Below are positions 1 through 16,769 of a DNA stretch of 38,857 nucleotides, in pieces; the first letter of the stretch is position 1; the number at the start of each line of letters is the position of its first letter. The DNA comes from Pseudomonadota bacterium. Lineage in GTDB: Bacteria; Pseudomonadota; Gammaproteobacteria; Burkholderiales; Thiobacillaceae. A program made the position numbers and the translations under genes. The notes under the pieces were generated by a model. It had not been told where the DNA came from and did not search any database. It saw only the letters and a program-made list of their open reading frames with translations. The stretch lies in the NCBI GenBank assembly GCA_030690985.1, contig JAUYFG010000204.1, forward strand, positions 1-38,857. The letters run 5' to 3'.

Positions 1-1
1 C

Positions 2-112
2 GTGTTCGCGGAGTTGGCAAAAAACCTGATCCGCTTCGTGGCCGGAGCCACTAAACCCAGACCCGCTCATCCTAAGCCGCATCGGAAACATGGATACAAA
101 TCAACCACTTGA
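2..112 (+). mobile_element. Probable 3' end of an IS transposase (partial)
   Basis: A reading frame is open from the window edge to the TGA at 110-112. Its 36 residues end in a basic, Pro/His-rich tail (KPHRKHGYKSTT), which resembles the C-terminus of DDE transposases. It overlaps the first codons of the following PEP-CTERM frame, which fits an element whose end lies within the next few tens of bases; a C-rich tract follows at about 147-163. The catalytic part and the other end of the element are outside the window, so family and inverted repeats cannot be named. It could also be the tail of an unrelated basic protein. Confidence 0.4.
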
Positions 113-782
113 GGGGGGATTGCTTAAGTTGAGAGGATTGACATTCACTCCCCCACCCCCCCACTCCTACGGCCTGTACGATCCGCCCAACTATTCGACC
201 ATGCATATCACTGACACCATCGTCCAGCGGAAGGTGGATTGCACAAACATCAACCTTTTGAATAACACATCAAGTTGCCAAATAGGCGACAGTACCAACC
301 ACCAGATTGAGATGGTGGCGATGCTGCTGCAAAGCGAAAGCAATCCGTCGACATGGGTGCGCGAGTCGACGACCCAGGCTAGCACCGGCTGGATGGAGCT
401 CTTCAGCGACGGGAGCGGAACGGGTGGGACGTTCAGTTCAACCCTGAACCTCATCCTTGAGATCAGTACTGACGGTGGTATCAATTGGGGGGCACTCGGA
501 ACCCACGTTGCCTCCTCCACAGGATCCATCTGGACGACGACTAAACCCAACAATCTGATCGCCGAGGTTACTGGTACGGTCGTTGATCCGACTGCCAACG
601 TTCACACTAACCTGGCCGGCGACCAATACGATTTCTATTCCACATACATCCATGAAGTTATTCCTGGGGGTGGGATACACGATGTCTCGATGGTACCCGA
701 GCCCGCCTCCCTCGCCCTCCTGGGCCTGGGCTTGGGCGCGCTAAGCCTGGCCCGCCGGCGCAAGGCGGCCTTAGCGGTATGA
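90..782 (+). CDS. PEP-CTERM sorting domain protein, probably 5'-truncated
   Basis: The C-terminus is a textbook PEP-CTERM signal: VPEP at about residues 202-205, a Leu/Gly-rich membrane helix, then an Arg-Arg-Arg-Lys cluster. Such proteins are recognised by exosortase (EpsH family) and sent to the cell surface or the extracellular polymer. The body is Ser/Thr/Asn-rich and acidic, typical of the secreted part. These proteins normally begin with a Sec signal peptide, but none is visible here. The first residues overlap the putative transposase end and then read through a proline-coding C-tract, so the native 5' end was probably replaced by an insertion; the ATG at 90 is only the first one available. 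Base composition is clearly less GC-rich than in the next gene. The stop overlaps the next start (ATGA). Function of the body is unknown. Confidence 0.65.
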   Translation: MDTNQPLEGGLLKLRGLTFTPPPPHSYGLYDPPNYSTMHITDTIVQRKVDCTNINLLNNTSSCQIGDSTNHQIEMVAMLLQSESNPSTWVRESTTQASTGWMELFSDGSGTGGTFSSTLNLILEISTDGGINWGALGTHVASSTGSIWTTTKPNNLIAEVTGTVVDPTANVHTNLAGDQYDFYSTYIHEVIPGGGIHDVSMVPEPASLALLGLGLGALSLARRRKAALAV

Positions 783-1759
783 CCGCGGCAACAGGCGCGG
801 CCTTCTCCGGGAGGCTGCGCCTGCGCCTTTTCGGCATTCCCAGCAGCGAGTCCGGTTTCGCCCGGCGCGGCTTCGCGCCGGCAGCCCCCGTCGTCCAGGC
901 TCGCCTGGAGGGAATAGGCGCCACCTTCATCGAGGGCTATCGCGCGGCACTCCTCCATGACGAGGCGGGGCCGCTCAAGGCCAGGCTGCAACTGATCGCA
1001 CCCGAGTTGCGCGGTTTCGCCTACGAGGGCGCCGGCATGGGGCTGGCACTGTCGGATTTTTTTACGCCCTGGCGCAAGCGCTGGCAGACCTTCCTGGAAG
1101 GGCCGGGCGCGGATCATGCCTACATGATGCATGTGGGGCTGGGCTGGGCCTGGGCGCGGCTGCCGGTGAGCATCTCCAGGCGGCTCGACCGGCTCGACCC
1201 CCTGTTGCGCTGGCTGGCGGTGGACGGCTACGGCTTCCATCAGGGCTATTTCCGCTGGCCCAGATTCATCGACGCGCAGGAACGTCCCCGCCTCTCCGGC
1301 TATGCCCTGCGCGCCTTCGATCAGGGCCTGGGCCGGAGCCTCTGGTTCGTCCGGGGAGCCAACGTCGAGCAGGTCGCCGCGACGCTGGCGGGCTTTCCCT
1401 CCGATCGCCAGGCCGACCTGTGGGGCGGGGTGGGCCTGGCCTGCGCTTATGCCGGGGGTGTCGCCAGGGAAGAGGTGGAACGCTTGGCCCTGGCCGCCGG
1501 CGCCCATCGCCCCCGGCTGGCCCAGGGCATGGCCTTCGCCGCCAAGGCGCGGGAGCGCGCCGGCAACCTGGCACCGCACACGGAACTGGCCTGCCAGGCG
1601 GTCTGGCATCGCTCCGCGGCCGCGGCGGCACAGTTGACCGACCAGGCTCTGGCGGGCTTGCGCGAGGAGGCCGGCGTCCCCGCTTACGAGCGCTGGCGGC
1701 AGCGCATCGCGTCCTATGCCGAGCCCCCGTCCGGCAGCGTGCCGCGCCAGGATGCCTGA
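779..1759 (+). CDS. DUF1702 protein, enediyne cassette UnbL/E3-like
   Basis: This 326-residue soluble protein matches the DUF1702 family as I know it in length and motifs: GFARRGF near the N-terminus, FIEGYRAAL, a central WLAVDGYGFHQGYF, and GLGRSLWFV followed by a Gly-rich GGVGLACAYAGG. DUF1702 proteins are one of the five conserved partners (UnbL, SgcE3-type) of enediyne PKSs; their biochemical role is not established. No signal peptide or membrane helix is seen. The start overlaps the stop of the PEP-CTERM gene (ATGA) and has no obvious ribosome site of its own, so translation may be coupled, or a later start may be used. It is followed by a 277-bp gap filled by a palindromic element and then by unbV, unbU, pksE and the thioesterase gene. 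Confidence 0.8.
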   Translation: MTAATGAAFSGRLRLRLFGIPSSESGFARRGFAPAAPVVQARLEGIGATFIEGYRAALLHDEAGPLKARLQLIAPELRGFAYEGAGMGLALSDFFTPWRKRWQTFLEGPGADHAYMMHVGLGWAWARLPVSISRRLDRLDPLLRWLAVDGYGFHQGYFRWPRFIDAQERPRLSGYALRAFDQGLGRSLWFVRGANVEQVAATLAGFPSDRQADLWGGVGLACAYAGGVAREEVERLALAAGAHRPRLAQGMAFAAKARERAGNLAPHTELACQAVWHRSAAAAAQLTDQALAGLREEAGVPAYERWRQRIASYAEPPSGSVPRQDA

Positions 1760-1814
1760 GATTCGCTGAGGCGCCTGCGCGGCCTTGCGCTGGTCGGGCT
1801 GGATTTGAGGTAAC

Positions 1815-1995
1815 TACTCAATAACCCTAAAAACCGCAGTTGGCCGCGTCCGTCGTAGGAGCGGGCTTGCCCGCGATAGCCACCGTCGCACCCGCAAGGG
1901 GTACGCCGGATTCGTAAGCCGCTAAAGCGGCAACGACTCCGCTGCATCGCGGGCAAGCCCGCTCCTACGGGGGCCACGCCACGGGTTATTGAGTA
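1815..1995. repeat. Composite palindromic element (MITE/REP-like)
   Basis: Outer perfect 13-bp inverted repeats (1815-1827 and 1983-1995) enclose a second perfect 23-bp inverted pair (1855-1877 and 1946-1968) whose ends are GTAGG...CCTAC. The octamer GATTTGAG occurs on both sides (1802-1809 and 2000-2007), a few bases outside the outer repeats, and may be part of a target duplication. The element fills most of the gap between the DUF1702 gene and unbV. It could fold into a long hairpin and act as an mRNA stabiliser or attenuator inside the operon. Confidence 0.75.
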
Positions 1996-2036
1996 TTTTG
2001 ATTTGAGTACATAACGAACATGACAGAGGAAAGACG

Positions 2037-3950
2037 ATGAGCCTGATACGGCGAAAACTGGGGGCCCTGGCCGCCTTGGCGCTGGTGGCGGTGCTGTTCT
2101 GGCTGGCCCGGTTTCCCACCTTGCCGCAGGTGGAGGCGGCGCGACTGGTGGAGCGCTTCAGCTTCACCCGCATGGCCCTGCCCGATCCGGCCGGCTATCC
2201 GCATAAGGAGGTGAGGGCGGTACACCCCAGTCTGGAACGCATTTCCGCCTGGATTTCCTCGGTGGGGGCGGCGGTGGCTCTGGCCGACCTGGACGGGGAC
2301 GGACTGGCCAATGACCTGTGCCATGTGGACCCGCGCACCGACCGGGCGATCGTCTCTCCCGCGCCCGGAACCGGGGAGCGCTATGCCCCCTTCGCCCTGG
2401 ACCCCAGCTCCGTCGGCTACGACCCCGCCACCATGGCGCCCATGGGTTGCCTCACGGGGGATTTCAACGAGGACGGCAAGCGCGACCTGCTCGTGTATTA
2501 CTGGGGTCGCACCCCGATCGCCTTCCTGCGCCACAGGAACCCCATGGCGGCTGCGGCCTATGTGGCGATGGACGTGAAACCGGGCGGCGAGCGCTGGTTC
2601 ACCAATGCCGCCACCCTGGCCGACCTGGATGGGGACGGCCATGCCGACCTGGTGGTGGGCAATTATTTCCAGGACGGCGGCCGCATCCTCGACGCCAAGG
2701 CCTCCGGGGTGGAAACGATGCACGACACCAAGTCCAAGTCGTTCAACGGCGGCGCCAAGCACCTGCTGCTGTGGGCGGGGGGGGGGACAGGGGCGGGCGC
2801 CGCGCCTTTCGTCCGTTACCAGGAGGCGGCCGGGGTACTGCCCGAGGCGGTGGACCGCGGCTGGGCTCTCGGCGTGGCGGCGGCCGACCTGGACGGGGAC
2901 GGCTTGCCGGAGCTCTATTTCGCCCATGACTTCGGGCCCGACCGGTTGCTGCACAACCGCTCCACACCCGGGCATCTCAACTTCGCCGTCCTGGAGGGCA
3001 AACGCGGCTTCAACACGCCGAAATCCTTCGTCCTGGGGCAGGACTCCTTCAAGGGGATGGGCGTGGATTTCGGCGATATCAACGGCGACGGGATGCTGGA
3101 CATCTACGTGAGCAACATCGCCAATCCATTCGCCTTGCAGGAAAGCCATATGCTCTGGCTCTCCAATGGCAGCCCGGAACTCATGCGCTTGGGGCAAGCC
3201 CCCTATGTTCAGGCCAGCGAGCCCCTGGGGCTGTCGCGCAGCGGCTGGGGCTGGGAGTCCCGGCTGGACGACTTCGACAACGACGGGGTGCTCGAGGCGG
3301 TCCAGGCCACCGGCTTCGTCAAGGGTAAGGTCAACCGCTGGCCGGAGTTGCAGTCCCTGGGCACGGGCAACGACCGCATGATGAGCGACCCCCGCCACTG
3401 GCCCAAATTCAGGCCGGGCGACGACCTCTCCGGGCAGCAGCCCAATGCCTTCTTCGTGCGCGCCGCCGACGGCCGCTTTTACGACATGGCCAGGCAGCTT
3501 GGCCTGGACGAACCCATGGTCAGCCGCGGCATCGCCACCGCCGACGTGGACGGCGACGGGGATCTCGACTTCGCCGTCGCCAACCAGTGGGAACCCTCCT
3601 ATCTCTATCGCAACGATTGCCCCCGCTGCGGCGCCTTCCTGGGGCTGCGCCTGATGCGCGTCGGCTCCGGCGGCCAGGCCCGTGGCCAGGCCGGACACCA
3701 GGCCATCGGCTATCCGGCCATCGGCGCCCAGGCCGTGGTGCGGCTGCCCGATGGCAGGCGCCTCATCGCCCAGGTGGACGGCGGCAATGGCCACTCGGGC
3801 AAGCGCAGCCAGGAACTGCATTTCGGGCTGGGCAAGCAGCAGGGGCCGGTCCAGGTAGAGATCAGTTGGCGCGACGCCCAGGGCAGGATGCAACGGGCGA
3901 CCCTGAATATGAAGCCGGGCTGGCATACCGTCCTGCTCGGGCAGGAATGA
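2037..3950 (+). CDS. UnbV/E4-like FG-GAP repeat protein with ASPIC/UnbV domain
   Basis: The 637-residue protein has an N-terminal hydrophobic segment (about residues 8-24), a signal anchor or signal peptide, so the rest should lie in the periplasm. Seven calcium-loop motifs of the VCBS/FG-GAP type begin near residues 84 (DLDGDG), 142 (DFNEDG), 196, 284, 347 (DINGDG), 412 (DFDNDG) and 503 (DVDGDG), which predicts a beta-propeller. The last 80 or so residues (GAQAVVRLPDGR, GGNGHSGKRSQELHFGLG) are the ASPIC/UnbV domain. UnbV is one of the five proteins conserved with enediyne PKSs; a secreted or substrate-binding role has been proposed but not proven. The start is supported by GAGGAAAG about 6 bases upstream. 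The next gene, unbU, follows after 13 bases. Confidence 0.88.
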   Translation: MSLIRRKLGALAALALVAVLFWLARFPTLPQVEAARLVERFSFTRMALPDPAGYPHKEVRAVHPSLERISAWISSVGAAVALADLDGDGLANDLCHVDPRTDRAIVSPAPGTGERYAPFALDPSSVGYDPATMAPMGCLTGDFNEDGKRDLLVYYWGRTPIAFLRHRNPMAAAAYVAMDVKPGGERWFTNAATLADLDGDGHADLVVGNYFQDGGRILDAKASGVETMHDTKSKSFNGGAKHLLLWAGGGTGAGAAPFVRYQEAAGVLPEAVDRGWALGVAAADLDGDGLPELYFAHDFGPDRLLHNRSTPGHLNFAVLEGKRGFNTPKSFVLGQDSFKGMGVDFGDINGDGMLDIYVSNIANPFALQESHMLWLSNGSPELMRLGQAPYVQASEPLGLSRSGWGWESRLDDFDNDGVLEAVQATGFVKGKVNRWPELQSLGTGNDRMMSDPRHWPKFRPGDDLSGQQPNAFFVRAADGRFYDMARQLGLDEPMVSRGIATADVDGDGDLDFAVANQWEPSYLYRNDCPRCGAFLGLRLMRVGSGGQARGQAGHQAIGYPAIGAQAVVRLPDGRRLIAQVDGGNGHSGKRSQELHFGLGKQQGPVQVEISWRDAQGRMQRATLNMKPGWHTVLLGQE

Positions 3951-3963
3951 GGGAGACACGAAA

Positions 3964-4902
3964 ATGAAGATCCAGGAAACCATCACCGCCAAGTATCTGT
4001 ACCCCAAGGGCGACCCCAAGATGCGGCTGTTCGCGCTGTGGTACTTCGGCATCCTCATCGCCCTGTGGAACCTGCTGGGCCACACCATCCTCGGCTTCGA
4101 GCAGTCCTGGGCGACGCCGCTGACCGCCGTGGCGGCGGCTTTCGCCACCCAACTGTTCCTGGCCTGGGTAGATGCCAAGAGCACGGGACAGACGCCGCGC
4201 TACAGCGGCGGCCTCCTCGCTTTCGGCACCTTCTTCCTCACCGCCATGATCCCCGGCCTGGCGGTGGGGATGCTGCTCTATCCCAACGAGAGCCTGGCCC
4301 CGATCATCTTCGCCGCCGCGCTGGCCGTCGCCTCCAAGGGGATATTCCGCGCCCCGGTCGGAGAAGGCCAACATCGTGGCACGCAGCACATCTTCAACCC
4401 GTCCAACTTCGGCATCACCTTTACCCTGCTGTTCATCCCCGCCGTGGGCCTCGCGCCGCCCTACCAATTCACCGAGAACGTGACCGGCGTCTGGCACTGG
4501 ATCATCCCCGGCTTCGTGCTGGCCACCGGCATTCTGGTCCATGCCCATGCCACCGGACGGCTGCCGCTCTGCCTGGCCTGGATCGGCGGCTTTCTGGCCC
4601 AGGCCTTCCTGCGCAGCTGGTACTTCGACATCCCCTGGATGGTGCCCCTGATCCCGATGACCAGCGCCGCCTTCATCCTGTTCACCCTGTACATGATCCC
4701 GGACCCGGCCACCACGCCTCTGGACACCCGCCGGCAGGTGGCCTTCGGCCTGGCGGTGGCGGCGGTGTACGCCGTGTTGCAGGTGGCCCATGTGGTGTTT
4801 GGCCTGTTCATCGCCCTGTGGCTGGTGTGTGCCCTGCGCGGGGTGGGCCTCTACCTGATGCGCTACCGGGCCGGGCCGCAGCGCGCCGCTGCGGCCGCCT
4901 GA
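3964..4902 (+). CDS. UnbU/E5-like integral membrane protein (RnfD/NqrB-related)
   Basis: The 312-residue protein consists of about nine or ten hydrophobic segments with short loops, starting with FALWYFGILIALWNLLG. The motif FNPSNFGI (N145-G150) matches what I recall of enediyne UnbU/E5 proteins, which are distantly related to the RnfD/NqrB subunits of ion-pumping redox complexes. Its role in enediyne or polyene formation is unknown; the relationship suggests an inner-membrane redox or flavin-linked step, which is inference. It lies 13 bases after unbV with GGGAGA as ribosome site, and 4 bases before pksE, consistent with one transcript. Confidence 0.85.
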   Translation: MKIQETITAKYLYPKGDPKMRLFALWYFGILIALWNLLGHTILGFEQSWATPLTAVAAAFATQLFLAWVDAKSTGQTPRYSGGLLAFGTFFLTAMIPGLAVGMLLYPNESLAPIIFAAALAVASKGIFRAPVGEGQHRGTQHIFNPSNFGITFTLLFIPAVGLAPPYQFTENVTGVWHWIIPGFVLATGILVHAHATGRLPLCLAWIGGFLAQAFLRSWYFDIPWMVPLIPMTSAAFILFTLYMIPDPATTPLDTRRQVAFGLAVAAVYAVLQVAHVVFGLFIALWLVCALRGVGLYLMRYRAGPQRAAAAA

Positions 4903-4906
4903 GCCC

Positions 4907-7900
4907 ATGAGCACCATCGCCATCGTCGGGATGGCCTGCCTCTATCCGGACGCCCGCTCCCCGGGTGAGCTCTGGGAGAACGTGCTGGCCAGGCGCCGCG
5001 CCTTCCGGCGCATACCGTCGGAGCGGCTGAACCTCGCCGACTACTACGATCCCGACCCTTCTACCCCGGATGCCATCTATGCCCAGGAGGCGGCCGTGCT
5101 GGAGGGGTGGGAGTTCGACCGGGTGCGCTTCCGAGTGGCCGGGAGTACCTACCGTTCCGCCGATCTCACCCACTGGCTCGCCCTGGACGTGGCGGAGCGC
5201 GCCCTCAGGAACGCGGGTTTTCCGGACGCTGTTGGCCTCCCCCGGGAGCGTACCGGGGTGCTGCTGGGCAACACCCTGACCGGCGAGTTCTCCCGCGCCG
5301 AGCTGCTGCGCCTGCGCTGGCCCTTCGTCCGCCGCATGGTCGCCGCGCAACTGCGGCAGCACGGTTGGGAGGCGGCGGAGTTGGGGGAATTTATCGAGGA
5401 ACTGGAGCGCTCGTACAAGGCTCCCTTCGCCCCGGTGACCGAGGAGACCCTGGCGGGTGGCCTGTCCAACACCATCGCCGGGCGCATCTGCAACCATTTC
5501 CATCTCCAGGGCGGCGGCTACACCCTGGACGGGGCGTGCAGCTCCTCCCTGCTTGCCGTCGCCAACGCCTGCACCGCCCTGGTCCAGGGCGATCTGGACG
5601 CGGCTCTGGCGGGAGGGGTGGATCTGAGCCTCGACCCCTTCGAGCTGGTGGGTTTTTCCAAGACCGGAGCCCTGGCCAAGGGCACCATGCGGGTCTACGA
5701 CCGGGATTCCTCCGGCTTCCTGCCTGGGGAAGGCTGCGGTTTCGTGGTGCTCATGCGCGAGGATGACGCCCTGGCCCGGGGACTACGCAGCTACGCCCTG
5801 ATTCGCGGCTGGGGGATATCCTCGGACGGGGCCGGCGGCCTCACCCGGCCCGAGGTGGAAGGACAGCGTTTCGCCCTGGAGCGGGCCTATGCCCGGGCCG
5901 GCTACGGCATCAATAGCGTGGCCCTGTTCGAGGGGCATGGCACGGGTACCGTGGTGGGAGACGAGGTGGAGCTCGCCACCCTCGGCGAGGCTCGTGCTGC
6001 CGCCGATCCCCAGGCGCAGCCCGCGGTGATCGGCTCGGTCAAGGCCAACATCGGCCACACCAAGGCGGCGGCCGGCGTGGCCGGACTGATCAAGGCCACC
6101 ATGGCGTTGCACAGCCAGGTGCTGCCGCCCATGACCGGCACGCAGCGCCCCCACGACCGCATCTGCGCTGAGCGCCCGGCCCTGCGGCTGCTGCGCCAGG
6201 CGGAACTGTGGCCCGAGAAGGAGCCACTGCGCGCCGGGGTGAGTTCCTTCGGTTTCGGCGGCATCAACGTCCATATCGCCCTGGAGGGCGCAACCGCGTC
6301 CCGGCGCAGTCGCCTTACCCCCCAGGAGATGAAGCTGCGGTCGAGCCCACAGGACGCCGAACTGTTCCTGTTCGCCGCCGAAGGCCCGGCTGCCCTGCGC
6401 GACCAGCTCCAACACCTGGCCGCCCTTGCGCCGCGTCTATCTCACGCCGAACTGGCGGATCTGGCGGCTGAGTTGGCAACCGAACTGGCCCCGGCTCACG
6501 GAAGTATGCGGGCAGCCCTGGTGGCCGCCACGCCGAGCGAGCTGGCGCGCAATCTCGATACCCTGCTCGCCTGGCTGGAGCGCGGCGAAACCCGGCGCCT
6601 GGAGGCCGAAGCCTTCCTCTGGGAGGGCGACACGCCTCCGCGCATCGCCCTGCTTTTTCCTGGCCAGGCCTCCCCGGTGCGTTTCGACGGCGGGGCCATG
6701 GGCGAGCGTTTCCCGGAGATCGCCGAGTTGTACCGAAATGCCGCGCTGGAGGTGGGGGATCCCCTCTCCACCGAGGTGGCCCAGCCCGCCATCGTCGCCG
6801 CGGAGCTGGCCGGACTCAGGCTGCTGCAGAAGCTGGGGCTGCACGCGGACCTGGCCCTGGGCCACAGCCTGGGCGAGCTGACCGCCCTGCATTGGGCGGG
6901 CGCCCTGGATGAACCCGGCCTGTTACGCCTGGCGCGGGCGCGCGGGCAGGCCATGGCCCAGTCTCCCGGTCCGGCCGGGGCCATGGCCGGCATCGGCGCA
7001 AAGGCCGCTGTGGTGGCTGCGCTGCTGCGTCCGGGAACGGTCATTGCCGGCCTCAATTCAGCGCAACAGACGGTGGTCTCCGGCGAGGAGCAGGCGTTGC
7101 TCCGGGTGATGGAAGAAGCGGCGCGGGCGGGATTGCGGGCGACCCGGTTGCCGGTATCCCACGCCTTCCATTCCCCGCTCATGCAGCCGGCCGCAGTGGC
7201 CCTGGCCGGGCCGCTGGCTGAGACGGATTTCGCTCCCTGCCGGCGCCGGGTGATCTCCAGCGTGACTGGCGAGCCCGTGGGCGAGGAAGAGAACCTGCGT
7301 CTGCTGCTGGAGCGCCAGTTGACCTCCCCGGTGTTGTTCACCCAAGCCTTGGAGCATGTCCTGGACGAGGCCGATCTGTGCCTGGAAGTGGGGCCGGGCA
7401 GCGTGCTCAGTGGCGTACTGAGCGGCCTGCTGCCGGCCGCCGTGCCGGTGTATCCCCTGGATACGGCGGGTGCGTCCCTGCGCGGCCTGCTGGCGGCGGC
7501 CGGCGCGGCCCACGCCCTGGGGGCGCGACTCGATACCCGCGGGCTGTTCGGCGACCGCTTTACCCGTCCCTTCAGCCTGGAGCGCCCCCTTAACTTCCTC
7601 GCCAATCCCTGCGAGCAGGCGCCTCAGTATGAGGAAGGCGTGGCGGCGCACCGCGCGGCGCGGCCCGTTTTGTCCTCACCTCCATCCGAATCACCTGCGC
7701 CGCACTCCGCCACTATTGCTGCCGAAGGGCCGCAAGGCGAGGGACAGAATTTCCTGGCGCTGGTGCGCGCGGCGGTGGCACAGCGCGCCGAGCTGCCCCT
7801 GGAGGCGATCAGCGACGACAGCCGACTGCTCCGGGATCTGCATCTGAATTCCATTTCCGTCGGCCAGTTGGTGGCGGAAGTGGCCAAGCGCGCCGGTCTG

Positions 7901-10768
7901 CCCGCCCCGGCCGCGCCCACCGACTACGCCGCCGCAACCGTGGCCGGAGTGGCCGAGTCGCTGGAGGAGCTGCGCAGGACCGGCGGCGACCGCCATGCGC
8001 CCGATGCCTTCCCCGCCGGTGTGGATACCTGGGTGCGCGCATTTGCGGCGTCACTGCTGGAAGCCCCCCTTCCTTCCGGCGGTAGCGCGCCGCCTCCTGG
8101 AATTTGGCGGGCATTGGCCCCGGCCGGGCACGCGTCGGCCGAGCCCATCCGCCAGGCCCTGGAGGCCTGGGGCGGTGGCGGCGTGCTGGTCTGTCTCGAT
8201 GGAAGCGAAGAGGACGAAGGGGAAGATGTCCGCCTGCTCCTGGAAGGGGCGAAGCTGGCCCTGGAACACGACGGCGAGCCGCGCTATTTCGTGCTGCTCC
8301 AGCAGGGGCGGCCCGCGTCCGGCTTCGCCAAGACCCTCTACCTCGAAGCCTCCGAGCTGGCGGTGTGCGTGCTCGACCTCCCGCCCGGCCTTCTGGCGCC
8401 GGAACGGGTCGTGGCCGAGGTTCGGGCGGCCAGCGGCTACAGCGAGGCGCATTACGACGCGGCAGGGCTGCGCCGCGAGCCGCGCCTGGAAGTGTTGGAT
8501 CTCCGGGAGGATGCGGGGCCGCCCCTGGGGCCTGGCGACGTGCTCCTGGTGAGCGGCGGCGGCCGCGGCATCGCTGCCGAGTGCGCCGCGATGCTGGCGC
8601 TGGACACGGGGGCGAGCCTGGCCCTGCTGGGCCGTTCCCGCCCCGAGCAGGATTCGGAACTGGCGGAAAACCTGGAACGCCTCACGGCCAAGGGGATCAT
8701 CTACCGCTACCTCAGCGTCGACGTGGCCGACGCCGAGGCCGTCCGCGCGGCCGTGGCGCGGGCGGAAGCGGAACTGGGCCCGGTCACCGCGCTGCTGCAC
8801 GGTGCCGGGATCAACGTGCCGCGCCTGCTCGGCGAACTCGGCGAGGACGCGGTACGCCGCACGCTCACTCCCAAGGTGGACGGCCTGCGCCATCTGCTGG
8901 CGGCAGTAGCCCCGGAGCGGCTGCGTCTGCTGCTGACCTTCAGTTCCGTCATCGCCCGCACCGGCATGCGCGGCGAGGCGGATTACGCCCTGGCCAACGA
9001 GTGGCTGTCCTGGATGACGGAAGCGTTCCGCACACGCCATCCCCAGTGCCGCTGCCTGGCGCTGGAGTGGTCCCTGTGGTCCGGCGTGGGCATGGGGGAA
9101 CGCCTGGGCCGGGTGGATGCCCTCCTGCGTGAAGGCATCACCCCCATCACCCCGGACCTGGGGCTGGGCATGCTGCGGCGGCTCGTCTGGTCCGGATTGC
9201 CGGTCGCCGGCGTGGTAGTGAGCGGACGCCTGGGCAGCGCGCCGACCGTGAAGTTCGCCGGCCCGGCCCTGCCCTTGCTGCGCTTTCTGGAGCGGCCGCG
9301 GCTGTATTACCCGGGCGTGGAGCTGGTGGCCGAGGCCGAGCTTGCGGAGGTGACCGATCCCTATTTGAACGACCACGCCTTCCAGGGCGAGCGCCTGTTC
9401 CCCACGGTCATGGGCATGGAGGCCATGGTCCAGGCGGCCCAGGCCTTGCTGGGCCGCGCGGATGTCCCCGCCATCGAGAACCTGAAACTGCTGCGCCCGG
9501 TGGTGGTCGCCGGCGGCGGCTCGACGCGCCTGCGCATCTGCGCCCTGGCCCGCGGCCGGGAGGGGGCAAATGATGGGGCCAATGATGTGGTCGAACTGGC
9601 GCTGCGCTGCGAGACCACGGGCTTCGAGGCGGATCATTTCCGGGCGCTGTGCCGCTTCGGGCCACTTCCCCCAAGCGATAGCCAAACCATCCCCAAGAGC
9701 GTGCTCGACCTCGATCCCGGCCGCGATCTCTATGGCGGCCTGCTCTTCCACAAGGGGCGCTTCCAGCGCCTGCAAGGCTACCGCGAGCTCAGCGCCGTGC
9801 GCTGCTGCGCCGAGATCGGCGCGGGCGACGGCAGCCCCTGGTTCGGCCGCTATTTGCCCGATACCCTGCTGCTCGGCGACCCCGGCTCCCGCGACGCCGC
9901 CCTGCACGCCATCCAGGCCTGCATCCCCCATGAAATCGTGCTGCCCACCGGCCTGGCCAAGTGGCTGCCCGGCCGCCTCGACCTGCCGGCCCCCTGGTTC
10001 GTCCAGGCCCAGGAACGATGGCACGACGGCGACGACTTCTGCTACGACCTGACGCTGTGTGACGCCCAGGGACAGATCAGGGAACGCTGGGAGGGCCTCA
10101 CCCTGCGCAGGGTGGAGGCAGAGATGCCGAAACGGGACGCCTGGCCGCTTGCCCTGCTGGTGCCTTACCTGGAGCGGCGCCTGGCGGAACTCCTGCCCGG
10201 CCCCGCCCCGGTCCTGTCACTGTCCAGCCAGAAGGCCGGGGAGCGGCGCGAACGCAGCGATCTGGCCCTGCGGGCGATCCTGGGTGAAGACGCGAAAATC
10301 CTCCGGCGGCCCGACGGCAAGCCCGAGGTCCCGGGCGGCGGCATGGTTTCCACCAGCCATGCCGACGACCTCACCCTGGCCATGGCGGCCGCGGGTGGAG
10401 TTGCTGGAATTGCCTGCGACCTGGAAGCCGTGGCGGAACGGCCGGAAGGTGCCTGGGCGGATTTGCTGGGAGCGCAGCGCATGGCCCTGGCGCGCCTCAT
10501 CGCGCAGGAGGCCGGCGAGGCCTTCGCGGCGGCGGCCACCCGGGTCTGGGCGGCGGCGGAATGCCTGGCCAAGGCCGGCCTCCCGCCCACCGCCCCGTTG
10601 ACCCTGGAGACGGTCCAGGCGGACGGCTGGGTCCTGCTCAAGTCGGGCGGCGTGGCCGTGGCCGCCTGGCTGGTGAAACTGGAAGGCCGACCCGCCGCCT
10701 ATGGGCTGGCAGTCCTGGCGGAGCTGGCGGCCGAGCCGATCACTCATGAACCAATTGCGATGGAGTAG
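4907..10768 (+). CDS. pksE: Enediyne-type iterative type I PKS (KS-AT-ACP-KR-DH-PPTase)
   Basis: This single iterative polyketide synthase of 1953 residues has the length and domain order of enediyne PKSs. The KS (about 1-450) has the Cys-His-His triad C211 (GACSSS), H344 (EGHGTGT) and H384 (ANIGHTK). The AT (about 575-870) has GHSLGE with S654 and an AFHS motif ending near 756. The ACP has its phosphopantetheine serine S982 in DLHLNSIS, the unusual form seen in PksE enzymes. The KR (about 1200-1410) has SGGGRG at 1216-1221, S1346/S1347 and Y1360. The DH is a hotdog fold with H1490 in LNDHAFQGE. The C-terminal integrated PPTase has H1818 (STSHADD), D1838 and E1840 (CDLE), and W1881-K1889 (WAAAECLAK). 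There is no ER or TE domain, so a reduced, dehydrated conjugated polyene is the expected chain. Release would be by the adjacent thioesterase. All catalytic residues checked are present. Confidence 0.93.
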   Translation: MSTIAIVGMACLYPDARSPGELWENVLARRRAFRRIPSERLNLADYYDPDPSTPDAIYAQEAAVLEGWEFDRVRFRVAGSTYRSADLTHWLALDVAERALRNAGFPDAVGLPRERTGVLLGNTLTGEFSRAELLRLRWPFVRRMVAAQLRQHGWEAAELGEFIEELERSYKAPFAPVTEETLAGGLSNTIAGRICNHFHLQGGGYTLDGACSSSLLAVANACTALVQGDLDAALAGGVDLSLDPFELVGFSKTGALAKGTMRVYDRDSSGFLPGEGCGFVVLMREDDALARGLRSYALIRGWGISSDGAGGLTRPEVEGQRFALERAYARAGYGINSVALFEGHGTGTVVGDEVELATLGEARAAADPQAQPAVIGSVKANIGHTKAAAGVAGLIKATMALHSQVLPPMTGTQRPHDRICAERPALRLLRQAELWPEKEPLRAGVSSFGFGGINVHIALEGATASRRSRLTPQEMKLRSSPQDAELFLFAAEGPAALRDQLQHLAALAPRLSHAELADLAAELATELAPAHGSMRAALVAATPSELARNLDTLLAWLERGETRRLEAEAFLWEGDTPPRIALLFPGQASPVRFDGGAMGERFPEIAELYRNAALEVGDPLSTEVAQPAIVAAELAGLRLLQKLGLHADLALGHSLGELTALHWAGALDEPGLLRLARARGQAMAQSPGPAGAMAGIGAKAAVVAALLRPGTVIAGLNSAQQTVVSGEEQALLRVMEEAARAGLRATRLPVSHAFHSPLMQPAAVALAGPLAETDFAPCRRRVISSVTGEPVGEEENLRLLLERQLTSPVLFTQALEHVLDEADLCLEVGPGSVLSGVLSGLLPAAVPVYPLDTAGASLRGLLAAAGAAHALGARLDTRGLFGDRFTRPFSLERPLNFLANPCEQAPQYEEGVAAHRAARPVLSSPPSESPAPHSATIAAEGPQGEGQNFLALVRAAVAQRAELPLEAISDDSRLLRDLHLNSISVGQLVAEVAKRAGLPAPAAPTDYAAATVAGVAESLEELRRTGGDRHAPDAFPAGVDTWVRAFAASLLEAPLPSGGSAPPPGIWRALAPAGHASAEPIRQALEAWGGGGVLVCLDGSEEDEGEDVRLLLEGAKLALEHDGEPRYFVLLQQGRPASGFAKTLYLEASELAVCVLDLPPGLLAPERVVAEVRAASGYSEAHYDAAGLRREPRLEVLDLREDAGPPLGPGDVLLVSGGGRGIAAECAAMLALDTGASLALLGRSRPEQDSELAENLERLTAKGIIYRYLSVDVADAEAVRAAVARAEAELGPVTALLHGAGINVPRLLGELGEDAVRRTLTPKVDGLRHLLAAVAPERLRLLLTFSSVIARTGMRGEADYALANEWLSWMTEAFRTRHPQCRCLALEWSLWSGVGMGERLGRVDALLREGITPITPDLGLGMLRRLVWSGLPVAGVVVSGRLGSAPTVKFAGPALPLLRFLERPRLYYPGVELVAEAELAEVTDPYLNDHAFQGERLFPTVMGMEAMVQAAQALLGRADVPAIENLKLLRPVVVAGGGSTRLRICALARGREGANDGANDVVELALRCETTGFEADHFRALCRFGPLPPSDSQTIPKSVLDLDPGRDLYGGLLFHKGRFQRLQGYRELSAVRCCAEIGAGDGSPWFGRYLPDTLLLGDPGSRDAALHAIQACIPHEIVLPTGLAKWLPGRLDLPAPWFVQAQERWHDGDDFCYDLTLCDAQGQIRERWEGLTLRRVEAEMPKRDAWPLALLVPYLERRLAELLPGPAPVLSLSSQKAGERRERSDLALRAILGEDAKILRRPDGKPEVPGGGMVSTSHADDLTLAMAAAGGVAGIACDLEAVAERPEGAWADLLGAQRMALARLIAQEAGEAFAAAATRVWAAAECLAKAGLPPTAPLTLETVQADGWVLLKSGGVAVAAWLVKLEGRPAAYGLAVLAELAAEPITHEPIAME

Positions 10769-10770
10769 TC

Positions 10771-11199
10771 ATGCCGGCCTATGAATACCGTCACGTGGTG
10801 AGCTTCGAGGAGACCAACCTGGTGGGCAATGTCTATTACGCCAACCATGTGCGCTGGCAGGGACGGGTCAGGGAGATGTTCCTGCACGATCACGCCCACG
10901 ACATTCTCCGGGAACTGGAGCAGGGCCTGAGCATGGTCACCACTCGGGTGTTCTGCGAGTACTACTCGGAGCTTTTCGCCTTCGACGAGGTGCTCATCCG
11001 CATGAGCGTGGGCGAGGTGACCCAGAGCCGGGTCACCATGCGCTACGAATACCTGTGCAAAGGCCAGTTGATGGCGCGGGGGGAACAACAGATCGCCTGC
11101 CTGCGCAAGGAAGGGGAGCGTATGGTGGCCGCGCCGGTGCCGCCATCGTTGCGGAGTGCCCTGCTCAGGTTCGCCGAGCCTGGGATATTGGTCGCTTAG
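10771..11199 (+). CDS. Hotdog-fold thioesterase, enediyne TebC/E10-like
   Basis: The 142-residue protein is a single hotdog-fold acyl-thioesterase of the CalE7/DynE7/SgcE10 group, which hydrolyses the nascent polyene from the ACP of PksE. The N-terminal motif FEETNLVGNVYYANHVRWQ followed by GRVRE (residues 12-35) is very close to that of the enediyne members; in this group the conserved Asn and Arg, not an acidic residue, support catalysis. The start lies 2 bases after the PKS stop, which argues for translational coupling. It completes the five-gene cassette. GC content falls sharply just after its stop. Confidence 0.9.
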   Translation: MPAYEYRHVVSFEETNLVGNVYYANHVRWQGRVREMFLHDHAHDILRELEQGLSMVTTRVFCEYYSELFAFDEVLIRMSVGEVTQSRVTMRYEYLCKGQLMARGEQQIACLRKEGERMVAAPVPPSLRSALLRFAEPGILVA

Positions 11200-11273: not shown

Positions 11274-11861
11274 ATGGACTTTCCACGAACGATCCCTTTC
11301 TGGGGAAATGACAAGATGGTTTCAAGCATGCTTCTGAAAGTTACGAAGAAGGGTGGTAAAGAAGCCGAAGATGTATTGTTAACTTCAATCATGGAACTGC
11401 GCCGAGGAAATCCATATAAGGCGGCCTCTGGCCATAGTCAGATTGACGTTCAAATAAAAGAATGGCGTGCACGCGGTTACTGCAAGTTAATAGGGAAGAC
11501 CATCGAATATCGCCTTTCTGCCAGCCGAGAGCAACCGTCGAGCGCAGTCCAGGCGATGCAAGCCGCGAGTGACTATCCTGCCCAAATGACCTTCAATGCG
11601 ATATTTGATGTTTTCATGGACAATAATCGCATTCTGGAAGGGCTAAATGGATCGGCGCAATCCGTTGGCCTGATGTCAATTCCGCCCCGTGGAAACGACA
11701 CTTTCACAGTTGACAAACCGTTCGAATATGACGGATTTGAAATGCAGACTGTGATGTGTGCAGCAAGTGCAGCACAATTGACCTCGGGACAGATAAGTCT
11801 TCTAAGACTCGGCAGCATGTTAGGCCTCATTCCGAAGAGCACTCGCGACAATCTAATGTGA
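11274..11861 (+). CDS. Hypothetical protein, AT-richer orphan
   Basis: I do not recognise this 195-residue protein. It has no signal peptide and no membrane helix; the N-terminal third is basic (KVTKKGGKEAEDV; KEWRARGYCKLIGK) and could be a small winged-helix-like region, but no motif is decisive. It starts after a clear ribosome site (TGGAGG, 8 bases upstream). Codon use is conspicuously AT-richer (AAT, ATA, TTA, AAA frequent) than in the PKS and transporter genes on either side, which suggests separate acquisition. Its stop overlaps a possible GTG start (11858) of the ABC ATPase gene. Low GC extends through the gap before it (11200-11273) and into the first codons of the next gene. Confidence 0.65.
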   Translation: MDFPRTIPFWGNDKMVSSMLLKVTKKGGKEAEDVLLTSIMELRRGNPYKAASGHSQIDVQIKEWRARGYCKLIGKTIEYRLSASREQPSSAVQAMQAASDYPAQMTFNAIFDVFMDNNRILEGLNGSAQSVGLMSIPPRGNDTFTVDKPFEYDGFEMQTVMCAASAAQLTSGQISLLRLGSMLGLIPKSTRDNLM

Positions 11862-11893
11862 TCGTCCATGACGCTGCATTCAGGGATTTGGCA

Positions 11894-12571
11894 TTGATCG
11901 AACTAAACTGCGTCAGCAAAACCTATGTGCTGGGATCCACCGAGGTCCACGCGCTGCGGGAGGTGTCGCTGAAGATCGAACAAGGCGAATTCATCGCGGT
12001 CTGGGGCCCCTCCGGCAGCGGCAAGTCCTCCCTGCTCAACGTCATCGGGCTGATCGACACGCCCTCATCGGGGGAAGTTCTACTCGCCCAGCATCGCATC
12101 AACGAACTCTCCGACGACGCCCTGGCGGAGCTGCGCAATGAGAAGATCGGCTTCATCTTTCAGAGCTTCAATCTGATCCCGGTGTTGAGCGCCCTGGAAA
12201 ACGTCATGCTGCCGCTGCAATTGCGCGGGGTGAGCGAACGGCAGGCCAGGGACAAGGCGAGGGCGCGGCTGGTGGAGGTGGGCCTGGAGCCGCGCATGCA
12301 CGCCCGGCCCGACGAGATGAGCGGCGGCCAGAGGCAGCGGGTGGCGATGGCGCGGGCGCTGGTGGGCGACCCGGAACTGGTGCTCGCGGACGAACCCACC
12401 GCCAATCTCGACACGGAAACCAGCTACCACATGGTGGAGTTGATGCGAAAGCTGAACGAGGACGACCGCGTCACCTTTGTTTTCGCCACCCACGACAACC
12501 GGCTGCTGGACCATGTGAAACGCAAGATTCATCTGGTGGACGGCCGCATCGGCGCGGAGGGGGAAGCGTGA
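11894..12571 (+). CDS. LolD/MacB-type ABC transporter ATPase
   Basis: This is the nucleotide-binding subunit of an ABC transporter of the LolD/MacB/FtsE class. Walker A (GPSGSGKSS), Q-loop (FQSFNLIP), signature (MSGGQRQR), Walker B (LVLADEPTANLD) and H-loop (ATHDN) are all present. I placed the start at TTG 11894, which gives IELNCVSKTYVLG, the usual family beginning, and 225 residues. The frame is open further upstream, so GTG 11858 (overlapping the previous stop) is the main alternative. It partners with the FtsX-type permease whose GTG overlaps its stop. Such pairs extract lipids or lipoproteins from the inner membrane or drive periplasmic export, rather than importing solutes. Confidence 0.9.
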   Translation: MIELNCVSKTYVLGSTEVHALREVSLKIEQGEFIAVWGPSGSGKSSLLNVIGLIDTPSSGEVLLAQHRINELSDDALAELRNEKIGFIFQSFNLIPVLSALENVMLPLQLRGVSERQARDKARARLVEVGLEPRMHARPDEMSGGQRQRVAMARALVGDPELVLADEPTANLDTETSYHMVELMRKLNEDDRVTFVFATHDNRLLDHVKRKIHLVDGRIGAEGEA

Positions 12572-13797
12572 GGTATCTGCTGCGCATGGGGCTGCGCAAC
12601 ATCTGGAAGAACCGGCGGCGCAGCGCCGCGACCATGCTTGCCGTCGCCATCGGCTTCGCCGCCATCAACCTGTTCGCGGGCTATGTCGACAATGTCTACA
12701 CGGGCCTGCGCGAGCAGGCGATCCACAGCGAACGCCTGGGCCATCTGATGATCGTCAAGCGCGGCATGTTCCTGGAGGGGAGCATCGATCCGGGCAAATA
12801 CCTGTTCAGCGGCGCCGAACTGAAGCGCATCACCCAATTGCTGCGCCAGGAAAACGAAGTGGCCCTGGCGACGCCGCGCCTGGACGTCAACGGCATTGTG
12901 AGTAACGGCAAGGTCTCCACCATATTCATCAGCGAAGGCCTGGTGCCCCGGGATCTGGCCGCGATCCGGGGTGACTACAGCATGGGCCGGGGCGGCAGCC
13001 TGGACCCCGGCAACCCCATCGGCGCCGCCCTGGCGCAGGACCTGGCCGCTCTGCTCAGGCTGAATACGGGGGATGGCGCCGTGGTGCTGACCACCACGGC
13101 GGAAGGCATGACCAACGCCCTGGATATCGAGGTGGCGGATGTCTTCAACACCGGTATCTCGGGGACCAACGACAAGTTCATCCTGCTGCCGCTGGAACTT
13201 GCGCAGCGTCTGTTCGACACCGACGGGGCGGACCGGCTGGTGGTGCTGCTGAAGGATGTGGCCGCCACGGAGACGATGCGGGAGCGACTGGCCGCAGTCC
13301 TGGCCAAGGCCGGGTTCGAAGTCGAGATCAAGACCTGGCGGGAACTCTCGGTGTTTTACGGGCAGGTCAAGGCGCTGTTCGACATGATCTTCCTGTTCAT
13401 TTCCGCCATCGTCATCGTGGTGGTCATCATGAGCATCATCAACACCATGAGCATGGCCGTCGTGGAAAGAACCCGGGAGATCGGCACCCTGCGTGCCCTG
13501 GGCATGAAGCAGAAGGGCGTGGCCCGGTTGTTCGTCCTGGAGGGGCTGACGCTCGCGCTGGCGGGATGCGTCCTCGGCGTGGCGCTGACCGTGGCGGTGG
13601 CGGCCATCATTAATAACCTCGGCATCACCTACGTGCCGCCCAACTCTTCCCATCATGTCCCCCTGTTGGTGGACCTGAATGCCACCGCATTCGCGCTGAC
13701 CTTTCTGGTTATGGCCGTCCTCGCGGGCCTGTCCGCATTCCTGCCGGCCAGGGCGGCGGCGCGGCGCGGCATCGTGGCGGCGCTTGGCCACGCATAA
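12568..13797 (+). CDS. FtsX/LolE-type ABC transporter permease
   Basis: The 409-residue protein has the FtsX/MacB_PCD architecture: an N-terminal helix after NIWKNRRRSAATML, a large periplasmic domain (about 45-270), then three membrane helices near residues 275-300, 325-350 and 370-395. The segment VVERTREIGTLRALGM, the coupling helix, is diagnostic. It starts at GTG 12568, overlapping the ATPase stop (GTGA). Together with the ATPase it forms a Lol-like machine. The substrate is not readable from sequence. Context (PKS before, LolA-like protein and outer-membrane barrel after) suggests a lipid or polyene cargo. Confidence 0.9.
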   Translation: MRYLLRMGLRNIWKNRRRSAATMLAVAIGFAAINLFAGYVDNVYTGLREQAIHSERLGHLMIVKRGMFLEGSIDPGKYLFSGAELKRITQLLRQENEVALATPRLDVNGIVSNGKVSTIFISEGLVPRDLAAIRGDYSMGRGGSLDPGNPIGAALAQDLAALLRLNTGDGAVVLTTTAEGMTNALDIEVADVFNTGISGTNDKFILLPLELAQRLFDTDGADRLVVLLKDVAATETMRERLAAVLAKAGFEVEIKTWRELSVFYGQVKALFDMIFLFISAIVIVVVIMSIINTMSMAVVERTREIGTLRALGMKQKGVARLFVLEGLTLALAGCVLGVALTVAVAAIINNLGITYVPPNSSHHVPLLVDLNATAFALTFLVMAVLAGLSAFLPARAAARRGIVAALGHA

Positions 13798-13808
13798 GGA
13801 GCATGGAT

Positions 13809-14561
13809 ATGGACAAGCAGCTCTGGATCATCGTGGGCTTTGTTGTGGCCTTCTTGGGCACGGGTTTCGCCCACTCGGCCGACATCTCCGCCGAAGCCAT
13901 CCTGCTGCAGGCCGACCGCGCACGGGGGGCGCAGTTGCCTGGCATCGAGTGGACCATCCAGGTTCTGGCACGGGAGGATGGTGACGAGCGGAGGCGCGAG
14001 ATTCTCGTGCGGGCGAAGGATGACAACAGCCTGGTGCGGTTCCTGTCCCCCGCCAAAGTCAGGGGCCAGAAGATGCTCCTGGTCGGGCAGAACATGTGGT
14101 TCATCCGCGACGGCTTGCAAAAGCCCGTGCCCATATCGCCCCGGCAACGCCTGATTGGGGAGGCGTCGAACGGGGATATCGCCTCCACCAATTACAGTGG
14201 GAACTACAGACCCGAGATCCTGAGGGAGGAAGCCATTGACGGGCAGCCTTGTTATGTCCTGGAACTCAAGGCCGCCAACCGCTGGGTGACCTACGACCGC
14301 ATCGTTTATTGGGTGACGAAAAATCGTTTGGTGGGGGTGAGGGCGGACTTCCATACTTTGTCGGGCAAGCTGTTCAAATCGGCGACCTTCGAATATGACA
14401 ACCTGATCCATTACCAGGGGAAGGCCCTGCCCTTCGTGAGCAGGATGGTCATCCGGGACGCGATCAGCCCTGGCAATGTCACCACCCTGGACTACGGCAA
14501 AATCCAGGTGAAGTCATTGACCGCGAAGGACTTCAACGTCGATCTGCTGATGAGGGAATAG
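13809..14561 (+). CDS. LolA-like outer-membrane lipoprotein-sorting protein
   Basis: The protein starts with a Sec signal peptide (WIIVGFVVAFLGTGFAHSA, cleavage near residue 24), so it is periplasmic. The mature part resembles the LolA-like lipoprotein-sorting family: VRFLSPAKVRGQKMLLVGQN followed by MWFI, and the late YDRIVYWVTKNRLVGVRADF. Members are half-barrel carriers for lipidated or lipid cargo between membranes. I chose ATG 13809 because AAGGAG lies about 7 bases upstream; ATG 13803 would be too close to that site. It sits 11 bases after the permease, and the next gene starts on its last base. Aryl-polyene clusters also encode LolA-like carriers, a useful parallel for this locus. Confidence 0.85.
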   Translation: MDKQLWIIVGFVVAFLGTGFAHSADISAEAILLQADRARGAQLPGIEWTIQVLAREDGDERRREILVRAKDDNSLVRFLSPAKVRGQKMLLVGQNMWFIRDGLQKPVPISPRQRLIGEASNGDIASTNYSGNYRPEILREEAIDGQPCYVLELKAANRWVTYDRIVYWVTKNRLVGVRADFHTLSGKLFKSATFEYDNLIHYQGKALPFVSRMVIRDAISPGNVTTLDYGKIQVKSLTAKDFNVDLLMRE

Positions 14562-15832
14562 TGCCTGCAAGGGGCGCATTGCTGTGGCTGGCGGGCGCCT
14601 GCCTTGTCGGCATGGCGCGGGCCGCGTCCGCAGCGGAGAGCAGCGTCGACCTCAGCGTGAGAACCCGTGCTTTGTTCTTCGGCATGGAGACCCAGCTCTC
14701 CCCGAACAGCCCATTCAACCCGGACAACCGCATCGCCGCGCTGCCGCGTACGGAACTCGAGTTGCATCTGCGGCCGGATTTCACCGTCTCCGGAGAGGGC
14801 TGGGAGGCGGTAGCCAAGCCCAGGGCCATCGGCAGACATACCCGAACGCAGTCCGCCGGCCAGGAGCTTCGGGAAACGGACGCCACCCTCGTGTTGAACG
14901 AGGCTTGGCTGCGCGGCGATTTTGGTGCCGAGTGGGTGGCTACCCTGGGCCGCAAGGTGGTTCTTTGGGGGCCGTCCATGTTCGTTTCCCCGAGCAACCC
15001 CTTTTTCGTCGACAACGGCAGGTCGAACCCCTATCGGGAAATACACGGACGCGACTTCGCGCAGATCTATTACTTCGCCAACGACTCGCTGAGCCTGCAA
15101 GGCATCGTCAATACCGGCCGCGGCGAGGCGGTGTCGGGAGTCGCTGCGTTCCAGCCAGTCGCCGCGCTCAAGCTGGACTGGACGGGAGCCACCCACGGCT
15201 TGAGCCTGATCCTGTCGGGAAAGGAAGGGGAGGCCCCACGCCTGGGGGGCTATGGCCAGATCACGGCAAGCCAGGGGCTGCTGCTCTATGGGGAAGGGGC
15301 GCTCCAGCGCGGTAGCGCGGCCCTTTACCCAGAGCGCCCGGCGGGCGACTTCATCGCCAGGGAGCAAGACTCGAATCGTCTGTATGCCACCGCGCTGGTC
15401 GGCGCCGCTTATACCCTGGCCGCCGGGCCGACGCTCCACATCGAGTACGTGCACAACAACGAGGGCTATAGCGACGGGGAGGCAGCCGACTACTACGATC
15501 TGGCGCGTGACCTGAGCCAGCAGATGGGCGTCGGCGGGGCGGCGGCTGTGTTGGGAAAGGGGCTGAATCCCAAGCAGTTGCTGCTCAGGCGAAACTATCT
15601 GTTCGCGCAGTATCTGCATACGAACATCGGGAACAGCCTCGATGCCACGTTGAGGTACACCCACAACCTCGACGATGGCAGCGGCATGTTCGTGCCCATC
15701 CTGTCCTGGAACGCCACTGACCGGCTACAGTTGTTCGCGCTGGGGGTGTTCAACCGGGGCGGTGCCCGAAGTGAGTTCGGGCCATTGCTGCATCGGCAGG
15801 TGATGTTGGGAGCGCAGCTATTCCTGGACTAA
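14561..15832 (+). CDS. Outer-membrane beta-barrel protein (DUF1302/porin-like)
   Basis: A signal peptide (ALLWLAGACLVGMARAASA, cleavage near residue 24) precedes alternating amphipathic strands rich in aromatic and Gly/Asn residues, for example LGRKVVLWGPSMFVSPSNPF and LEYVHNNEGY-like hairpins, ending in RQVMLGAQLFLD. This is the pattern of a monomeric outer-membrane barrel and looks similar to DUF1302-type proteins; the exact family is uncertain. The start is GTG 14561, sharing a base with the previous stop (TAGTG). It is the last gene of the co-directional set and provides the outer-membrane component next to an ATPase, permease and periplasmic carrier. It could be an acceptor or export pore for the cassette product, or a porin carried along by chance. 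Confidence 0.8.
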   Translation: MPARGALLWLAGACLVGMARAASAAESSVDLSVRTRALFFGMETQLSPNSPFNPDNRIAALPRTELELHLRPDFTVSGEGWEAVAKPRAIGRHTRTQSAGQELRETDATLVLNEAWLRGDFGAEWVATLGRKVVLWGPSMFVSPSNPFFVDNGRSNPYREIHGRDFAQIYYFANDSLSLQGIVNTGRGEAVSGVAAFQPVAALKLDWTGATHGLSLILSGKEGEAPRLGGYGQITASQGLLLYGEGALQRGSAALYPERPAGDFIAREQDSNRLYATALVGAAYTLAAGPTLHIEYVHNNEGYSDGEAADYYDLARDLSQQMGVGGAAAVLGKGLNPKQLLLRRNYLFAQYLHTNIGNSLDATLRYTHNLDDGSGMFVPILSWNATDRLQLFALGVFNRGGARSEFGPLLHRQVMLGAQLFLD

Positions 15833-16698: not shown

Positions 16699-16720
16699 GT
16701 GCCCCCCCTTACCGGAATAT
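16692..16720 (+). promoter_or_regulatory. Candidate sigma70 promoter for the bio operon
   Basis: A perfect TTGACA (16692-16697) is followed after 17 bases by a weak -10, GAATAT (16715-16720). Transcription would start near 16727, leaving about 43 bases before ATG 16770. No BirA-type operator is recognisable. It overlaps the divergent comF start. Confidence 0.4.
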
Positions 16721-16769
16721 GCCGCGACTTTTTTACCCGTTTGCCGCTGATTCTGCGCGCTTCATCAAA

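Follow-up and report, generated by a model that had tools for sequence, protein, structure and literature searches.

Known enediyne clusters have five genes in common (PMC5181780), E3, E4, E5, E, and E10, encoding DUF1702, UnbV, UnbU, the iterative type I polyketide synthase (PKS) PksE, and a hotdog thioesterase (TE), respectively. Enediyne-type PKSs outside Actinobacteria are already known, with two papers reporting enediyne ketosynthases (KSs) from Proteobacteria and Cyanobacteria, among other phyla (PMC10308959) and the five cassette genes in methanotrophs (PMC8788690), so that the initial annotation of the DNA studied here, which had proposed an "under-described" proteobacterial branch, is fair only in part on this point. 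Here we describe such a cassette in a 38,857-nucleotide stretch of a Thiobacillaceae genome (GCA_030690985.1, contig JAUYFG010000204.1; the whole stretch is referred to as the window), whose host is a betaproteobacterium. With moderate confidence, we read the locus as a full PKS cassette of the enediyne type that belongs to a proteobacterial branch and was brought in on a genomic island; its polyene product would be processed, exported, and held by a barrel protein at the cell surface.

The five-gene cassette and its relatives

The genes for DUF1702, UnbV, UnbU, PksE, and TE occur together, are all intact, and lie on the + strand where the initial annotation had placed them (Table 1). Their order is identical to that of two Streptomyces clavuligerus cassettes; in C-1027, the TE gene lies ~6.5 kb from the PKS gene. 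PksE shares 985 of 1914 aligned residues with SgcE of C-1027 in a match spanning 99% of the PksE length. The catalytic residues previously described as intact (C211, S654, S982, Y1360, and H1490) are indeed so, aligning together with D1838 of the phosphopantetheinyl transferase (PPTase) region to C211, S659, S974, Y1350, H1480, and D1827 of SgcE, and the KS, acyltransferase (AT), acyl carrier protein (ACP), ketoreductase (KR), dehydratase (DH), and PPTase residues are thus all in place. The nearest solved relatives of the TE are CalE7 (E = 2e-38), SgcE10 (5e-35), and DynE7 (2e-33). With respect to the partner genes, DUF1702 and UnbV pass their profile searches, whereas UnbU is matched by no Pfam model at cutoff (best, NQR2_RnfD_RnfE with 18.2 bits versus 27.7 needed), yet aligns with two Streptomyces UnbU proteins at 40-45% identity. 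Comparison of the UnbU profile (A6) with RnfD chains gave matches in the C-terminal part only (8ahx_D, E = 2.7e-4; 7zc6_D, E = 0.11).

In the KS tree, which includes no polyunsaturated fatty acid (PUFA) synthase row, the window KS groups with the enediyne KSs as had been anticipated, the 55 cassette rows being separated with a support of 100 from four other ketosynthase rows on long branches. The PfaA model matches PksE with 500 bits, under its cutoff of 1010. When four of the proteins are concatenated (50 rows; quick tree search under one site model), the resulting tree joins the window to the proteobacterial loci L010, L011, L012, and L013 (SH-like approximate likelihood ratio test [SH-aLRT] support, 100) and groups seven Streptomyces/Nonomuraea rows in a separate clade (support, 100). 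Between the two origins suggested beforehand, this tree favors the proteobacterial branch and rejects direct transfer from an actinobacterium. The KS tree is less clear on origin, since the long-branched Lentzea (L086) and Scopulibacillus (L088) rows fall near the window with weak support.

Scanning GTDB genomes with the UnbU alignment and keeping the best 80 of 502 relatives, we tabulated 83 loci, namely, these 80, two actinobacterial plasmid loci, and two order-level relatives, minus one duplicate (L018, which duplicates L007); the actinobacterial L005, L006, and L086 are tabulated but stand outside the counts of 80 and 49 given below. The 80 non-actinobacterial loci comprise 49 with PksE, 15 with DUF1702-UnbV-UnbU and no PksE, 14 with UnbV-UnbU only, and 2 with UnbU only. 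PksE loci are spread over Cyanobacteriota (14), Verrucomicrobiota (10), Acidobacteriota (8), Pseudomonadota (8), Planctomycetota (4), Myxococcota (2), and Bacillota (1), in addition to the two order-level relatives (L007 and L008), which form a divergent, separate lineage with the order PksE-TE-DUF1702-UnbV-UnbU. The 14 UnbV-UnbU loci (L014, L020, L022, L027-L029, L032, and others) have no DUF1702, PksE, or PEP-CTERM gene nearby.

Counting the genome itself each time, DUF1702 is found in 2 of 61 close relatives (the second being a fragment in genome G005); across the order it occurs in 3 of 399 genomes, and in a phylum sample in 1 of 398. G005, from another species of the genus, has separate DUF1702, UnbV, UnbU, and PksE pieces in cassette order on one contig (L009, contig C785); these pieces are a decayed relative of the cassette and were left out of the locus table.

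A PEP-CTERM protein family at the cassettes

When the open reading frames (ORFs) neighboring the cassettes were clustered, a PEP-CTERM family emerged to which an ORF of the window belongs; the family has two branches, related at 99.4% in profile comparison. The family protein is predicted to be an exported, surface-sorted small barrel that may resemble DynF of the dynemicin cluster. It has the features of exosortase cargo (a signal-like N terminus, PEP motif, transmembrane helix, and basic end, with an exosortase in the genome), the window copy being split. A PEP-CTERM gene lies within 2.5 kb at 24 of the 49 non-actinobacterial PksE loci, 22 of the 24 being in the barrel family; these counts drop to 22 and 20 without L015 (609 amino acids) and L049 (860 amino acids), which, like L059 (1040 amino acids), are family loci resting on long opposite-strand ORFs. 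Among loci without PksE, 9 of 31 have such a gene nearby, with none at the 14 UnbV-UnbU-only loci and none at the three actinobacterial loci. Excluding the window's own, 36 of 41 family genes are on the cassette strand, and 18, all cyanobacterial, are situated between unbV and unbU.

Because the family had been found at cassettes, we searched for it in whole genomes, covering 39 cassette genomes from 40 of the 80 loci (L066 was left out; cassette-free cyanobacteria and planctomycetes lie outside this search). For the first branch, 18 of 23 matches lie at a cassette; the second gave 11 matches, corresponding to 10 further genes, all at a cassette, and one weak rematch of a gene already counted. 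Altogether, 28 of 33 family genes are at a cassette (assigned by hand from contig ranges), that is, within 0.26% of 261 Mb (rounded sizes). In 60 relatives, no family match exceeds 28.6 bits, compared with 192 bits for the window, and none of the matches listed starts before position 129 of 269, so that they fall in the C-terminal half with the motif. The host genome itself contains 15 PEP-CTERM motif matches, or one per 264 kb. At L055, the barrel domain is kept without the motif, and no exosortase match was found in that genome.

The putative island and its genes

The window corresponds to contig C189 in an assembly of 314 contigs that is 98.5% complete and rated 5.28% contaminated. Bin contamination as the source of the cassette is ruled out, since bio genes conserved in the genus share its contig, as do cbb3-oxidase and nusA-infB genes; the contig is therefore not mis-binned. 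The element at the window start has 12 matches in its own genome, 11 of them at least 138 bases long at 99-100% identity. The edge of contig C242 shows the inverted insertion-sequence terminus and the same 10 bases as the window start (a duplicated target). C242 carries nudB and, at positions 193-384, the N-terminal part of a second PEP-CTERM gene with a signal-like helix, the rest of which begins the window. On sequence grounds, the PEP-CTERM gene of the window is split by the insertion sequence, and ORF 90-782 was rejected as a whole gene because its start codon falls inside the repeated element. The initial annotation had overlooked this PEP-CTERM partner, the insertion sequence splitting it, the island, and the absence of C-1027 tailoring genes from the locus. 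At the same edge of C242, a 362-amino-acid ORF has at its end a motif similar to PEP-CTERM that scores 15.5 bits, below the cutoff.

In all four same-genus stretches (L139-L142), nudB, u154, bioB, and bioF are found together, with no cassette or Lol gene. From this adjacency and the shared insertion-sequence edges of C242 and the window, we infer a putative island of ~17 kb between nudB and bioB, reaching from the two PEP-CTERM genes through the five-gene cassette, u195, and the Lol/MacB-type exporter to the protein ending at 15832. The G+C content is 0.695 in the cassette versus 0.615 from u154 to the window end; at third codon positions (GC3), it is 0.49 in the PEP-CTERM remnant and u195 and 0.82-0.91 in the other island genes.

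Table 1. Features at the left end of the window
Feature	Position	Strand	Evidence or remark
End of repeated element (insertion sequence)	1..140	+	Terminus CTTAAGTTGAGAGGATTG, then 10-base target copy ACATTCACTC
3' part of PEP-CTERM gene, cassette-associated barrel family	141..782	+	Pfam PEP-CTERM, 28.5 bits; family profile A3, 192 bits
DUF1702 (E3-type)	779..1759	+	PF08012, E = 7e-109
UnbV (E4-type), FG-GAP/CRTAC1-like	2037..3950	+	FG-GAP repeats; UnbV_ASPIC, E = 5e-14; 45% identity to C-1027 protein
UnbU (E5-type) membrane protein, remote RnfD similarity	3964..4902	+	Alignment with Streptomyces UnbU; profile comparison with RnfD
PksE, iterative type I PKS (KS-AT-ACP-KR-DH-PPTase)	4907..10768	+	Pfam KS, AT, KR, dehydratase; SgcE alignment
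Hotdog thioesterase (E10-type)	10771..11199	+	4HBT_2, E = 2e-13; CalE7, SgcE10, DynE7 similarity
u195	11274..11861	+	No Pfam match; relatives at two other cassettes
LolD/MacB-type ABC ATPase	11756..12571	+	Similarity begins at about codon 46
LolC/FtsX/MacB-type permease	12568..13797	+	Profile matches
LolA-like protein	13803..14561	+	PF17131, E = 1e-36
423-amino-acid protein, possibly outer membrane	14561..15832	+	Weak DUF1302, below cutoff
u154 and bioB, right flank of island	16692..18139	+	Adjoin nudB in L139-L142

The PEP-CTERM part and the DUF1702 start overlap by ATGA, and the gap between DUF1702 and UnbV (1760-2036) contains gtaggagcgggcttgcccgcgat together with its reverse complement, an inverted repeat that looks like a REP-type element. 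The true start of the ATPase is probably near 11890, given where its similarity begins. Relatives of u195 adjoin cassettes in Luteibacter (L075) and in a Lysobacterales metagenome-assembled genome (MAG; L079), with signal-like N termini there; that u195 is itself a divergent member of the PEP-CTERM family is unsupported (hhalign probability, 0.1%). LolD, the FtsX/MacB-type permease, and the LolA-like protein are also encoded beside UnbV-UnbU in a Chloracidobacterium MAG (L081), seven other cassettes have related permeases nearby, and three have an HlyD-like protein (a single member served to annotate each family).

Some loci combine these proteins with other synthases. Two planctomycetes (L039 and L043) have DUF1702-UnbV-UnbU and a PEP-CTERM barrel gene with a discrete ketosynthase, an ACP, and a double-length TE, and no PksE; the double-length TE family is present in nine loci. 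In L081, DUF1702-UnbV-UnbU is accompanied by a ketosynthase pair, one member of which is without the active-site Cys pattern. As for genes known from C-1027, one search of 84 sequences gave a regulator related to R2 (AraC type) in 15, the window not among them, and relatives of the E2-adjacent hypothetical protein WQO_RS34010 were found at five cyanobacterial cassettes and one of Lentzea (L056, L064, L070, L074, L077, and L086).

Possible roles and comparison with known systems

CalE8-type enzymes make conjugated polyenes, which CalE7 releases (PMC3107222), and in the surface-barrel reading introduced above, PksE would likewise make a conjugated polyene that the TE releases. DUF1702, UnbV, and the RnfD-like UnbU would handle or oxidize it at the cytoplasmic membrane, probably after chain synthesis, because they also accompany discrete ketosynthases. 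The Lol/MacB-type exporter would carry the product through the envelope. The PEP-CTERM protein would itself be exported and exosortase sorted, and may form a barrel in which the polyene, or what is made from it, is retained at the cell surface, as a Gram-negative counterpart of DynF. In the window itself, the pathway may be impaired, changed, or decaying, because the insertion sequence splits the barrel gene. More tentatively, we propose that outside Actinobacteria, the cassette could generally serve as a surface-delivery system in which an exosortase-anchored, DynF-like, polyene-binding barrel receives the product from UnbU/UnbV and a Lol/MacB-type exporter, with DUF1702-UnbV-UnbU as a portable post-synthesis module for PksE or discrete ketosynthases.

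Several observations weigh against the surface-barrel reading. In the structure comparison, DynF (PDB 6ubl) leads two outer-membrane-type barrels by just 1.0 and 1.2 Z, at 12% identity, and no other enediyne-cluster protein is among the 50 matches listed. Three profile searches of PDB did not connect the PEP-CTERM family with DynF at the sequence level, and coexpression of DynF with SgcE and DynE7 did not demonstrate heptaene binding but again gave palmitate. Of the 49 PksE loci, 25 have no nearby PEP-CTERM gene, some of them with 7 kb of upstream sequence, and for 5 of the 33 family genes, no cassette gene was seen in the surrounding stretch. L008 carries a PEP-CTERM tag in a genome with no exosortase match, and the exosortase association table is weak and only suggestive (P = 0.066). 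LolA is not cassette specific, since 18 of 40 relatives encode a LolA-like match and almost none of these has DUF1702. Finally, we did not find ychF, the other neighbor of nudB on C242, next to that gene in any of the stretches from the four relatives (available nudB-side sequence, 5.8 kb in L139 and 2.9 kb in L140); this does not fit a simple insertion, and the left island border may therefore involve a rearrangement.

Aryl polyenes stay in the outer membrane, and the product of the locus might similarly be a polyene pigment or membrane antioxidant that remains there, with the PEP-CTERM protein as a structural surface protein. Although this would fit the lack of tailoring genes at the locus, the Lol-type exporter with its LolA-like protein, and the pairing of DUF1702-UnbV-UnbU with discrete ketosynthases in two planctomycete and one acidobacterial locus, we regard it as rather unlikely, as it leaves unexplained both the presence of the three proteins in all enediyne clusters and the predicted DynF resemblance of the barrel. 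A conventional pathway, in which the cassette makes the precursor of a DNA-damaging enediyne and the warhead oxidoreductases are encoded elsewhere, would account for the intact set of five common genes, the ABC exporter downstream, and the relatives of the E2-adjacent C-1027 protein at cyanobacterial and Lentzea loci. It appears unlikely, however, because none of the C-1027-type E6-E9 and E11 genes was found in the window's first 17 kb or the 6 kb of C242 (a search with the rest of the genome and 10-membered-type genes outside it), and among 82 other loci, S. clavuligerus L006 was the sole one to give E6, E8, E9, and E11, with E7 found there and in L031 alone. That the PEP-CTERM link is incidental to genomes rich in such genes is very improbable, for despite the 15 motif matches in the host and a count favored by first picking the family at cassettes, these matches are sparse, the 60 relatives match only the C-terminal motif half, family genes are concentrated at cassettes in 0.26% of the DNA, and L055 keeps the domain without motif or exosortase.

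If the surface-barrel reading is correct, a widespread, reduced cassette with an exported barrel would let the roles of E3, E4, and E5 be tested apart from a full enediyne pathway; to our knowledge, every enediyne cluster retains these three genes, which have no settled role. It would also give PEP-CTERM sorting, whose cargo, as far as we know, is mostly without known function, a concrete small-molecule link. Cultured hosts include Methylotuvimicrobium buryatense 5G (L011), which has the cassette without the barrel, its upstream PEP-CTERM gene falling outside the barrel family at our threshold, and Aquisphaera insulae JC669 (L080) and Paludisphaera soli JC670 (L085), which have the barrel gene as well. 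In the literature searched, largely without subscription papers, we found neither the PEP-CTERM partner, the DynF-like predicted fold, nor DUF1702-UnbV-UnbU beside discrete ketosynthases, and a paper touching on both PEP-CTERM and enediynes did not connect the two.

Among described systems, work by Craig from 2011 is said to have linked N-acyl amino acid synthases to PEP-CTERM; these are biosynthetic enzymes tied to the same sorting system, but they are acyl synthases and not a PKS cassette. DynF shares 12% identity and no profile match with the PEP-CTERM family, whose members have a signal helix and sorting tag, whereas DynF was expressed as a 22.6-kDa soluble protein. The cassettes of Methylotuvimicrobium are nearest in the tree and have the gene order of the window, and INp10 (Methyloprofundus) is reported to hold E3, E4, E5, E, and E10 homologs (PMC8788690), but the window cassette lies on a betaproteobacterial island with LolDC-LolA, genes that were not found in the Methylococcales flanks examined. 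With C-1027 and other actinobacterial E3/E4/E5/E/E10 cassettes, the locus has in common the five genes, the PksE domains and active sites, and a TE of the CalE7/SgcE10 kind; it differs from C-1027-type clusters in having no E6-E9 or E11 at the locus, in belonging to a separate clade, and in having a PEP-CTERM partner and a Lol/MacB-type exporter adjoining the cassette.
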